Position numbers and translations under genes: made by a program | In this document: positions 54,397 through 64,000 of the stretch, in pieces | Numbering within the stretch: position 1 is the first letter of the stretch | Layout of the letters: each line of letters starts with the position of its first letter | Notes under the pieces: generated by a model | Told to the model about the DNA's origin: nothing | Databases searched by the model: none | Seen by the model: the letters and a program-made list of their open reading frames with translations, nothing else | NCBI GenBank assembly: GCA_961205875.1 | Contig: OY540817.1 | Location: forward strand, 5,925,001-5,989,000 | Direction: 5' to 3' | Origin: Sialis fuliginosa | Lineage: Eukaryota > Arthropoda > Insecta > Megaloptera > Sialidae | Length of the DNA: 64,000 nucleotides

Positions 54397-56776
<2,380 letters not shown>

Positions 56777-57153: not shown

Positions 57154-57909
57154 TTATTTTTTTATTTTTTTTCCTTTCTGTTTACCCATTCGTGATTTAA
57201 TTTTATCATTTCTTCTTTTTAACTGCAATGATTTTTTTCTCATTTTTCGACTTTCAATTTTATTTTTTATTTGATATGCTTTACTTTTTTGAACATTTTT
57301 AGTGGCTTGATTTTTTAAAACCTTTTTAAGATCCTTTTTTGAATTAAATATTTTTTGTTCTTCTTTAACAGGTTTTTCTACTTTAGTTGTAAGATTCATG
57401 CCAGGTATTTCTGTATCACTCACTTGATCTTTCTCTTCTGTCGATTCAACATCAGATTCATACTGTGCACGATTTGGCCCAATCCAATTATTTTCATTCG
57501 CTATGTTATTTTCTGATAGCTCTATAACTTTTATGGTAGCATTTTCTGTTTCGTATTCTTCTGAAAATAAATTTTCAATTCCTGGGATAGACCGATGTGA
57601 CAGTACAAGTTTCTTATATCTCTCTTGTGCTTCCTTCTTTAAACGTTTTCGTTCTTCTTTTAACTGTACTTGTAAGTCCTCTTCAGCTTTTTTCTTCCGT
57701 TGCAACTTTCTTTTATGGAATCCTCCAAGAAATTCTCTAAAATATTAAAATTTAATCAAAATATTTGTCAACATAACCTATAATTTCACGTACTAAAAAT
57801 CAATTCACTTGAAAGTTACTTACTTTCTTTTCTCCTCATCAAAAACTAAATGTAGTTTATTTTTCTTGTTTTTCTTACTCTTCTTATTTGTTTTAATCGT
57901 TGTTTCCAT
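57154..57909 (-). CDS. NOL12/viriato-type nucleolar RNA-associated protein, two exons
   Basis: Member of the nucleolar protein 12 family (NOL12 in vertebrates, viriato in Drosophila), needed for rRNA maturation and nucleolar integrity. Exon 1 is 57824-57909 and exon 2 is 57154-57736, joined by GTAAGT...TTTTAG in matching phase, giving 222 residues (human NOL12 is about 213). The N-terminus carries the family signature LVFDEEKRKEFLGGFHKRK, which spans the splice junction, followed by a charged helical stretch (QRKKKAEEDLQ, then EERKRLKKEAQERYKKL) likely to form a coiled coil. The middle is acidic (ESDVESTEEKDQ) and the last 60 residues are very lysine/arginine-rich, as expected for a nucleolar, RNA-binding tail. 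The start is the first ATG before the signature, after which lysine-rich sequence begins. An AATAAA overlaps the stop codon. It lies just upstream of mof on the same strand. Confidence 0.9.
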
Positions 57910-58166: not shown

Positions 58167-58371
58167 GGGTCGATCCAGACTATCGTACCAGTCCCGGTCC
58201 GGTCTCGCTGCAATCAAAATATAAATAAACAATAAACAATGAAAGCATCCACACTATAAGTGTTGTGCCGGTCTCGCTCCAGTCACACTCCAATACAGTA
58301 TTTACTATAATACTGAATATTTGACTGGAGCGAGACCGGACCGGGACCGGCACGATAGTGTGGATAGACCC
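58167..58371. mobile_element. Short TIR element with TTA target duplication (Harbinger-like MITE)
   Basis: Ends are about 43-base inverted repeats starting GGGTCGATCCAGACTATCGT on the left, matched with four or so differences on the right (GGGTCTATCCACACTATCGT read inward). TTA flanks both ends (58164-58166 and 58372-58374). The arms are GC-rich (CCGGTCCGGTCTCGCT), unlike their surroundings. It sits between the NOL12 start and the orcokinin 3' exons. Confidence 0.75.
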
Positions 58372-58397
58372 TTAGTACTTGTACTTTAACGTATAAT

Positions 58398-58920: not shown

Positions 58921-59312
58921 TCTTTTTTTGGGTCCCGGTTTCAAAATAATTGGGTACCTCTGGTCCTTGTAATAATTTTTATTATGCAACAATTAAAATC
59001 TTACATGTTTTAAAAACATCTAAATAAACTAAATAGAAAGGGAAATTTGGTATAGAATAAAATATAATAAAATTTATTAATTTTACAATATACATTTATT
59101 ATTTTTATAATAAAATATCATACTTCAAATTAAATGTATTTAAATTTCGTTGAACAAGTATAGTACATTTACATGTATGTATTTAGCACATTTATTATAA
59201 AATAAAATTATTATTGAAGAGACAACGATTTTCAACAACGCCATTATTTCTATAAGTTTTATTTAAAATTGATTCAAAACATAAAATATATAGTTATTTA
59301 AAATGTTATTTA

Positions 59313-60192
59313 TTAATTTTTTAAATGTTTCCTCAGAAATTTGACCTGCTCAAATGGATGTTCATGCCAGCTGTAGTCGTTTTGAGAATTTAAATAATAC
59401 AGATACATTTTTTTCATTGCGTTTTCAGGTTCGTAGATATTGTAGCTGTCAGCGCTGAAAAATCAAGAAAAATTATTTGGGGGGGGGGATTATTTTATTG
59501 TATTATATATTTTTTAATTACCGATAAGTACTAAATCCCATATCCCCACCCCTCCCTCTTATGTTTTTGTAATATTAATAATGATTACCTGTTTGGGGGG
59601 TTGTACCTCTTAGCTACTCCAAATGACGCTCCTGTAAGTGAGTCAATACCGGCTCTTCTATTTCTAATCGAGAAAGGATGCCAACGTTCCAAAATCCTGC
59701 AATTAATACAAAAAAATGTGTTCTACTCTATACTCTATTTCATTTAAGAATGCAGTGGTTGCCATGGTTTTTGACGGTAAAATGCACGATTCGTACCGTA
59801 AAAACCCCGGCAACCACTGAATTCTTAAATGAAATAGAGTATAGGTCAAGTATTTTGCGTATTGATAAAAGTATTATTTTTTAAATTTCTTCAGCAACTG
59901 ATTTTTACATAAAAGAAAATCGGTCAATTTTATACAAAAAATATTTACCGAGGGTCAAATCTTTTAGCAGTTCCAAATGAAGCTCCAGTTAGTGAATCTA
60001 TGCCCCCTCGAGTATTCCTTGAAAACAGTAAAGAATTCAAGTCACTGAAAATAAATGAACAGTTAGAAAATAAATTTATTAACAGTACTTCTGCCGTTTA
60101 CCTTTGGTCGAATCTCTTAGCAGTACCAAACGATTCACCTACCAATGGATCAATGCCTCTTGTTTGTCGTTGATCAAATTGATTTAAAAGTC
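59313..60192 (-). CDS. Alternative 3' exon set, probably a second orcokinin-gene transcript, encoding three GIDxLxGxSFG peptides
   Basis: Four small exons on the minus strand join in one frame with clean GT-AG sites: 60102-60192, 59949-60044, 59589-59696 and 59313-59454, ending at TAA. The first three each encode one peptide copy: RGIDPLVGESFGTAKRF, RGGIDSLTGASFGTAKR and RAGIDSLTGASFGVAKR, each preceded by a basic cleavage site (R, R or RR) and followed by KR or KRF. The fourth encodes a tail ending FLRKHLKN. The first exon starts with two bases of a split codon, exactly the phase of the orcokinin B exon upstream, so both could splice to one shared signal-peptide exon, as orcokinin genes are known to do for their A and B transcripts. 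The peptides are not the classic NFDEIDR orcokinin A; they share only the D-S-L-x-G core with orcokinin B. A separate neuropeptide gene is the alternative. Confidence 0.7.
59728..59844. repeat. 117-base near-perfect hairpin (mini MITE) in an orcokinin intron
   Basis: Two arms of about 51 bases, beginning CTATACTCTATTTCATTTAA, pair with only a few mismatches around a 14-base loop. TA sits on both sides if the ends are taken as TACTC...GAGTA. It lies in the intron between exons 59949-60044 and 59589-59696. Most likely a short palindromic MITE; a transcribed small-RNA hairpin is possible. Confidence 0.8.
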
Positions 60193-60333
60193 CTATAGGT
60201 TTACAAAATCGATATCAGACAAATGATTTATATATACAATGAAAAAATATGAAAATAATGATAAGAAATACGTACAACATACACTTTGTTTCAATTTTTT
60301 ATTTTAAACAAATTCATTTACATTTTTTAAATA

Positions 60334-60339
60334 TTTATT
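60334..60339 (-). terminator. Polyadenylation signal of the orcokinin B transcript
   Basis: AATAAA on the minus strand, about 105 bases past the B-exon stop and before the next alternative exon at 60192. It fits a B transcript that ends here. Confidence 0.5.
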
Positions 60340-60443
60340 TAATATATATACAGTCAATTATTAAATTATGATTGATTTTCTTGATTGGTACTACTGATTA
60401 ACTTTAGCTTCAGTCGTTTAAAATCCGAATCGCTATCGCTTAC

Positions 60444-62083
60444 TTATCTTTTAAGTAAGTTTGTTCCTCCAAGTGAATCTAATTCTCTCTTAAGTAAATT
60501 TGATCCTCCGAGCGAATCCATTTCTCTTTTAAGTAAGTTTGTTCCTCCAAGTGAATCTAACTCTCTCTTCAATAAATTTGTACCTCCAAGTGAATCTAAC
60601 TCTCTCTTCAATAAGTTTGTACCTCCAAGTGAATCTAAATTTCTTTTGAGTAAATTACTTCCCCCAAGTGAATCTAACTCTCTTTTCAATAAGTTTGTTC
60701 CTCCAAGTGAATCTAACTCTCGCTTCAGTAAGTTTGTTCCTCCAAGTGAATCTAACTCTCGCTTCAGTAAGTTACTTCCTCCAAGTGAATCTAACTCTCT
60801 CTTCAATAAGTTTGTTCCTCCAAGTGAATCTAACTCTCGCTTCAGTAAGTTTGTTCCTCCAAGTGAATCTAACTCTCGCTTCAGTAAGTTACTTCCTCCA
60901 AGTGAATCTAACTCTCTCTTCAATAAGTTTGTTCCTCCAAGTGAATCTAACTCTCGCTTCAGTAAGTTACTTCCTCCAAGTGAATCTAACTCTCTCTTCA
61001 ATAAGTTTGTTCCTCCAAGTGAATCTAACTCTCTTTTCAATAAGTTTGTTCCTCCAAGTGAATCTAATTCTCGCTTCAGTAAGTTACTTCCTCCAAGTGA
61101 ATCCAACTCTCTCTTAAGTAAATTCGAACCTCCAAGAGAGTCTAAAGTTCTTTTAACTAAGTTATTTCCGCCAAGTGAATCAAAATGTCTGTCATTTATG
61201 TTATTAAATGAATATAATCTTCTCTTATCTAATAAATTAGGGCCTCCAAGTGAATCTAACTCTCTTTTAAATATAGTTGAGCCTTCAAGAGAGTCTAAAG
61301 TACTTTTAATTAAATTATTACCTCCAAATGAATCTAAACTACTTTCAAGTGAATTTCTAGGATCAAATGAATATAATTTTCTCTTATTTATTATATTACT
61401 ACCCCCAAGAGGATCTAATGTTCTTTTAAGTAATTTTGTACCCCTAAGTGAATCTAAATTTATCTTAATTAAATTTGGGTCAGCAAATGAATCTAATGAA
61501 TTCCTATTTCTCAAAAAATATATAGCTCTTTTAAGTATATTTGTACCTCCAAGAGAGTCTAAAGTTCTTTTAATTATGATATTCCCTCCAAGAGGGTCTA
61601 AAGGTATTCTAAGGATTTTTTCATCGTTAAATTGCCTTTTAAGTAAGTTGGTTCCACCAAGGGAGTCAAGCTCTCTTTTCAAACGTTTAGCACCTCTCAG
61701 AGAATCTAACTGTTTTGCAAATACACTGATTTCTTCAGCAGAGTTATAAGTCTTCTTTGGAGGGTTTGTGCCTGGTAATGAATTCAACTCGCTTGAAAAT
61801 AAATTCTTATCTTCTAGAGAACTAAAATCTCTATTTAACATTGTATTTGTTCTAAATAAAGTATTAGAATCGATAGGAAGTCTTTGTTTTTTCCACATTT
61901 TTCCTCTGGAATTTATTTTGAATTCTTTTCTCAAGAGAGATATTCCTTCATTTGATTCTAATACAGTTTTGAATAATTTTGTTGCGCCGATTGTATCGAT
62001 TTGCCTTTTCAATATCTTTGCATAATATCTAAGATTTTTGTTCGCCAAACGGATTGGTTTTTTTACGGCAACTTTTGAATAAT
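60444..62083 (-). CDS. Orcokinin precursor, orcokinin B repeat exon (terminal exon of the B transcript)
   Basis: Encodes the secreted prohormone part that prohormone convertases cut at Lys-Arg sites into orcokinin B peptides; Drosophila orcokinin B is GLDSIGGGHLI. The exon opens after a good acceptor (TTTTTGTAG, 62084 on) and ends at a TAA, 545 codons. After about 110 spacer residues come roughly a dozen degenerate units (for example LDPLGGNIIIKR, FDSLGGNNLVKR), then 18 nearly identical 13-residue units of the form ELDSLGGTNLLKR or ELDSLGGSNLLKR. Every unit is separated by KR. There is no signal peptide in this exon, so it must be spliced to an upstream exon not identified here; the first ATG at 62048 is internal. 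The first complete codon follows two bases, so the upstream exon must end with one base of a split codon. Family assignment is from the peptide motif; the exact number of released peptides is inferred. Confidence 0.88.
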
Positions 62084-63452: not shown

Positions 63453-64000
63453 AGAAGAGTTTTATTTCGTCTGTTACCCTTCCCACCCCCATTTCAATAT
63501 ATTTATTTATAAGGATACAATGTGTACAAAACATTAAATTCTATTACTTCTTTCTTATATTATGAACCAAAGAAAAATATTATACAAAAAGAAAAATTAT
63601 TAGTAATACACATATGTAGGTACTAGAGACTAGAAGAGTTTTATTTCGTCTGGAAAATCCATACGAAATACGAAAATATTTTCATAAGAATGAAAACATT
63701 AGGAAAAAAACATTTCCTCATCGATAACAGTTGAGTGAAAATGTCATGTATAGAAACAGAAATGTCAGTGTTTGAACATGTGGACCACATGCAACAAATA
63801 TAGAAACATGTCTTTGTTTTTACGAAAAAAATCTTTGTTGACAGATACGGACTTGATATTTACGTATATTTTTTTTTGGAAATAAACTGATATGGCTTGT
63901 GATATATTATTTCACAAACGTTAACTACGATTTTTCTTTTTTTTAACATTTTTTTCTTTTACGAACCGTTTTAAAAATAAAGTTTATTTTTATTAAAATA
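63453..64000. other. Intergenic, nothing recognised except a short direct repeat
   Basis: A 24-base word beginning ACTAGAAGAGTTTTATTTCG occurs at about 63450 and again at about 63629. The rest is AT-rich with no supported feature. Confidence 0.4.

Follow-up and report, generated by a model that had tools for sequence, protein, structure and literature searches.

A probable A-type alternative exon set encoding orcomyotropin-like peptides in the orcokinin gene of Sialis fuliginosa

Introduction

In the excerpts of four reports considered here, one gene with A and B forms of orcokinin is described in other insects (PMC4237046, PMC6585902, PMC6250713, PMC11817372). The locust (Locusta) orcokinin A transcript carries the peptide SGLDSLSGATFGEQ, which is described in the partial text of its source as resembling both orcomyotropins and orcokinin B (PMC4237046). 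For the B form, most precursors are stated to be cut at a single Arg, and Lys-Arg (KR) sites are linked to loss of the convertase PC1/3 in the sections drawn on (PMC6585902).

We analyzed a window of 64,000 nt from the megalopteran Sialis fuliginosa (GCA_961205875.1, contig OY540817.1, positions 5,925,001 to 5,989,000), in which a first-pass annotation had proposed that a group of tiny exons, here called exon set A, serves the orcokinin gene as alternative exons and encodes a possible undescribed peptide family. We find it very probable, judging from the sequence, that one insect orcokinin gene lies here on the minus strand and that exon set A forms its A-type alternative 3′ end. Since the window ends at position 64000, before the start of the gene, 60 kb more of the same contig was added (124 kb in total), and positions beyond the window are given in these extended coordinates.

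Results

Read on the minus strand, the region 59313-60192 extends exactly from the end of exon A4 to the start of exon A1. Exon A1 (60102..60192, 91 nt, phase 1 in and 2 out) has an AG acceptor, a GT donor and an open frame, and encodes ...QTR-GIDPLVGESFGTA-KR-FDQ. Exons A2 (59949..60044, 96 nt, phase 2-2) and A3 (59589..59696, 108 nt, phase 2-2), each with an AG acceptor and a GT donor, encode ...NTR-GGIDSLTGASFGTA-KR-FDP and ...NRR-AGIDSLTGASFGVA-KR-YNPPN, respectively, and the terminal exon A4 (59313..59454, 142 nt), also preceded by AG, runs from phase 2 to a TAA stop and supplies the last 47 residues of the A precursor, split codon included. When the exons were joined by script, the frame remained open up to the stop with the phases 1 to 2, 2 to 2, 2 to 2 and 2 to stop, and the first-pass description of three tiny exons, each with one conserved peptide next to KR and with consistent splice phases throughout, was thus confirmed and extended by a fourth, stop-bearing exon. 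A1, A2 and A3 each contain one copy of G-I-D-x-L-x-G-x-S-F-G-x-A-KR, and basic residues flank every core, with KR after all three copies and R, R and RR before them. Being of phase 2-2, exons A2 and A3 are frame-neutral, so that the reading frame could survive duplication or skipping of either. An AATAAA at 59258..59263 (minus strand), 3′ of the A stop codon, is a candidate poly(A) signal of the A transcript by consensus match, as are four further AATAAA, matched in the same way, that lie 3′ of this stop down to 58978. The intron between A2 and A3 also holds a 45-nt inverted repeat (59728-59844), with arms 93% complementary and 27 nt apart, which may represent a small transposon or form a hairpin with an effect on splicing.

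We then considered whether the set is coding and conserved. A relaxed motif regex matched three times in 104 kb read in six frames, in A1, A2 and A3, although these matches show rarity and not independence, as the regex was derived from the finding itself. Over the 17-codon repeat, the three copy pairs gave pS values of 0.75, 0.72 and 0.76 and pN values of 0.12, 0.23 and 0.11 (Nei-Gojobori counts without correction, on 17 codons only), corresponding to 9.0-10.0 synonymous differences on 12.5-13.2 sites and 4.0-9.0 non-synonymous differences on 37.8-38.5 sites per pair. The codons were chosen for likeness, so the low pN is partly due to that choice, whereas the high pS is not. Since most differences among the copies are silent, the peptide itself appears to be under selection, and the near saturation of the silent sites suggests that the copies are probably old. 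A chance motif was rejected in view of three copies that differ by mostly silent changes. When the assembly of the species itself was searched with the set, at least four matches among the best candidates scored corresponded to A1, A2, A3 and A4, and no second copy of the set was seen among those candidates. Pfam yielded no family for the A precursor.

The orcokinin B exon lies upstream at 60444..62083 (minus strand), and many xLDSxGGxxL copies, the feature of orcokinin B, stand within this one long exon. The form (L/M/I/F)DSLGG(T/S/N)NL(L/V)KR was counted 20 times by a strict regex and 28 times by a loose one, and the exon includes a 39-bp tandem array. The only Pfam match above cut-off in this exon was DUF6189, the entry of which says nothing on orcokinin. 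Of five starts tested, two (62083 and 62080) maintain the frame, and 62083 is the one of this pair preceded by AG, which sets the entry phase at 1; the earlier statement that the A set and the B exon are entered in the same phase therefore holds, with phase 1 for both. One ATTAAA and two AATAAA at 60298..60343 (minus strand), after the B stop and upstream of A1, are candidate poly(A) signals of the B transcript by consensus match. Lys-Arg follows most B copies, unlike the single-Arg cutting described for most orcokinin B precursors in the part of the source cited (PMC6585902), and several subtilisin-like convertase loci are present in the genome. The B precursor also contains the stretch SFDPRNSLESSLDSFGG at 61370-61320 (minus strand), and the FDPR in it recurs after the KR of A2 (59959-59949) in the spliced A precursor; this shared FDPR is possibly a trace of common origin or a worn piece of orcokinin A.

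Upstream of the B exon, two candidate 5′ exons were identified on the minus strand. Candidate exon 1 (71230-71150) encodes a predicted signal peptide, MQSFGVKECIFLTCLIVSVVSSFESNH, and has a phase 0 donor, and candidate exon 2 (66345-66303, 43 nt) encodes VQQISSSEDFDEPD plus one base and has a phase 1 donor. Exon 1 was the only signal-peptide exon to pass strict criteria on both strands of the 124 kb, was one of five candidates under looser criteria (minus strand, 62084-104000), and was also among the 29 ATG frames with a hydrophobic start in the loosest list. Among 31 phase 0-to-1 candidates, 17 of them on the minus and 14 on the plus strand, exon 2 ranked first with a score of 17.4, followed by a nested variant of it (12.5) and an unrelated candidate (11.8). 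Both predictions were made with crude home-made splice/donor and hydrophobicity scores, and the same thresholds would miss true exons of this gene (A1 acceptor, 2.8 versus 3; A2 donor, 0.7 versus 2), so the uniqueness of the two exons is suggestive and not proof. Four frames of the loosest list have a weak phase-1 donor (starts 100427, 94124, 81569 and 66888) and could enter A1 directly, with none of the four passing the donor score of the looser 62084-104000 scan. Joined to the B exon, exons 1 and 2 give a precursor of 587 aa, and joined to A1-A4 a precursor of 186 aa, both open to the stop; the junction codon of exon 2 becomes GAT (D) into B and GGA (G) into A1, and its predicted phase 1 fits both ends. 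No ATG in the A1 frame occurs between the A1 acceptor and the preceding stop codon, and no separate signal-like first exon with a phase-1 donor for the A set was listed in 62084-66302.

To place the peptides, we scanned six frames of the 124 kb without gaps for the locust peptide SGLDSLSGATFGEQ. A2 and A3 were the joint best (44 each), followed by a B repeat (31) and A1 (30), while the best window outside the gene scored 23 and the best of 60 shuffled queries over 6 kb scored 29. These scores put A2 and A3 far beyond chance; A1 (30 versus 29 for the best shuffle) is marginal alone and is tied to the others by its likeness to A2 and A3. A core like the Locusta SGLDSLSGATFG is accordingly clear in A2 and A3 and marginal for A1 taken by itself. 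With the crustacean orcomyotropin FDAFTTGF as query, none of the eight best windows listed in the 124 kb lay in the A exons, and the orcokinin NFDEIDRSGFGFN did not find these exons in the same 124 kb either. In the open-licence literature searched, the A-core strings were not found in print apart from the locust SGATFG (PMC4237046, partial text). The A set peptides are thus most likely, on sequence likeness, of a known kind, insect orcomyotropin-like, and constitute no new neuropeptide family.

The classic NFDEIDR of orcokinin A is absent from the A set, and the first-pass annotation was right in setting its peptides apart from that sequence. An NFDEIDR core by dibasic sites was not found in the 124 kb, where the best score was 27 and the best eight windows listed all lay outside the gene. 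Over the 392-Mb assembly, the pattern N(F/L/I/M)DEID plus a partial codon, which allowed zero mismatches and would miss a motif split by an intron, gave eight matches; a backward control pattern gave five, which indicates that the eight are near chance. NFDEID itself is read in two of them, preceded by a single K within a 50-residue frame in one case and lying within a 24-residue frame in the other; both are single copies in their loci. The match nearest to an orcokinin, ...LK-NFDEIDK-LNF... at C7:24141700 (50-residue frame, single copy in a 3-kb locus, no KR), is probably due to chance. A canonical orcokinin A elsewhere in the genome was not found with this pattern, none of the eight matches being flanked by KR. 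Within the limits of these searches, the A-type transcript of this insect would encode orcomyotropin-like peptides but no orcokinin A peptide.

Several other loci were noted. The downstream neighbor on the same strand (57154-57744, minus) matches Pfam Nop25 (nucleolar protein 12, E = 2e-17) and thereby bounds the orcokinin gene on its 3′ side. A MYST-type zinc finger at 55741-56142 (minus strand, E = 3.3e-25), accompanied by a match below cut-off to the beginning of a MOZ/SAS domain, suggests what is probably part of a histone acetyltransferase gene. A GC-richer stretch at about 58180-58380, parts of which resemble inverted repeats by eye (GGTCCGGTCTCGCTCCAGTC and near complements), is perhaps a MITE. 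Elsewhere in the assembly, the first 2500 bases of a 25-kb contig (C19) contain long ORFs of bacterial type that look by eye like those of a sensor histidine kinase and a response regulator, and this contig looks like bacterial DNA in an insect assembly. CCTAA telomere repeats were present at four of the ten contig ends examined, and two of the other six start with N. The mitochondrial tRNA order is I-Q-M and W-C-Y, the ancestral insect order. A USP fragment had as its best library matches the RXR-like 1xiu (274 bits) and USP 2nxx (273.5), followed by USP 1z5x (252.9) and, much lower, 1hg4 (157) and 1r1k (150); 2nxx, 1z5x, 1hg4 and 1r1k are taken to be from Tribolium, whitefly, fly and moth, respectively. 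The AKH in the genome is pQVNFSTGWamide, a form reported from Orthoptera, Hymenoptera, Neuroptera, Dermaptera and water striders in the excerpt consulted (PMC10926376). Together, the telomere repeats, tRNA order, USP fragment and AKH argue against a moth or a fly but are otherwise barely informative on the insect order, and a placement among ladybirds, suggested by the KR sites in B, was abandoned as unsupported.

Discussion

The arrangement described above is consistent with one gene that has two alternative ends. In the proposed scheme, the two 5′ exons (71230-71150 and 66345-66303) would be common to both transcripts and would form the true 5′ end of the gene. In one form, the phase-1 donor of exon 2 would be spliced to position 62083 of the B exon and the transcript polyadenylated ahead of A1, to yield the 587-aa precursor with its many orcokinin B peptides; alternatively, exon 2 would skip B and be joined to A1-A2-A3-A4 to yield the 186-aa precursor. 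Alternative terminal exons would be the simplest working of such an A/B choice, with candidate poly(A) signals after the B stop and after the A stop. The signal peptide would direct the A precursor into the secretory pathway, where predicted cleavage at the KR after and the R or RR before each copy may release GIDPLVGESFGTA, GGIDSLTGASFGTA and AGIDSLTGASFGVA as free acids, all orcomyotropin-like. By analogy with reports on other insects, the A form may be expressed in neural tissue and the B form in the gut, and a role in signaling may likewise be supposed here.

Other readings of the locus were weighed against this one. A separate neighboring neuropeptide gene with its own signal-peptide exon upstream of 60192, an option named in the first-pass annotation, could draw on the link between A1 and exon 2 being predicted only, from crude splice scores, and on the four ATG frames of the loosest list that have a weak phase-1 donor. 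Immediately upstream of A1, however, stand the last part of the B exon and some 250 nt beyond the B stop, a stretch that lacks an ATG in the A1 frame; no signal-like first exon with a phase-1 donor is listed between 62084 and 66302, the entry phase of the A set equals that of B, and the peptides resemble one from an orcokinin A transcript in the locust, all of which makes such a gene very unlikely. The fit of one upstream signal-peptide exon and one short exon to both ends in phase, together with an A1 frame that has no ATG, instead supports the suggestion that these exons are an alternative set within the orcokinin gene.

It seems even less probable that the peptides form a third product class of the gene, a possibility also raised at first pass, without homology to the orcomyotropin-like kind. 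AGIDSLTGASFGVA shares 8 of 14 identities with the Locusta A-transcript peptide, and 11 of 14 when I/L and S/T exchanges are included (hand count), so that the match to an orcomyotropin-like peptide speaks against this class, in spite of the failure of the crustacean motif FDAFTTGF to find the A exons and of the flanking pieces FDQ..., FDP... and YNPPN..., which match nothing known to us. The same match, in which A2 and A3 were the best of the 124 kb, leaves the idea of an undescribed peptide family unsupported. We give the least credence to a decaying remnant of an A-type exon set whose product is no longer made: the frame, the splice sites and the stop are intact across four exons and the changes among copies are mostly silent, which outweighs the NFDEIDR peptide not having been found.

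Under the preferred reading of an A-type alternative 3′ end, we lean, with little more than even confidence, toward the view that the A transcript in this lineage dropped canonical orcokinin A and now serves solely as a precursor of orcomyotropin-like peptides, which spread through duplication of phase 2-2 exons. If the A transcript is orcomyotropin-like only, A-type signaling would run on that peptide, antisera or assays against NFDEIDR would miss it, and searching for orcokinin A with NFDEIDR as the sole motif would score the A transcript of this gene as absent. A species with such a transcript would also offer a separate test of the action of the orcomyotropin-like peptide; in 2016, the receptors for orcokinin products were described as unknown, according to the excerpt of the report cited (PMC4770511).

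Compared with known systems, the A set shares with the Locusta SGLDSLSGATFGEQ the core G-(L/I)-D-S-L-(S/T)-G-A-(S/T)-F-G in A2 and A3, the absence of an amidation glycine, and an origin in an alternative to the B transcript, which is predicted here. It differs from Locusta in that each of three small exons carries one copy, with KR-FD(P/Q) or KR-YN after it, and in that no NFDEIDR peptide was found. The peptide that defines classical orcokinin A (NFDEIDR...) in Bombyx and Orconectes, as given in the portions of the sources used (PMC13302288, PMC11817372), was likewise not found in the gene here, and the genome-wide pattern search showed none beside KR. In Bombyx, A and B forms are described as products of alternative splicing of a gene with exons numbered 1-8 (PMC13302288, PMC11817372, partial texts), the same A/B splicing as is proposed here. 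The orcokinin B of Coccinellids and Drosophila is stated to have Lys-Arg cleavage sites (PMC6585902, in part), similar to the 29 KR sites in the B precursor of Sialis. In tenebrionid beetles, the passages cited describe one gene with two splice variants and an A-type transcript without NxDEIDR (PMC9552230); these A transcripts are also reported there to be without FDAFTTGF, as is the A set, and, likened by description only, they provide a precedent for the exon set described here.
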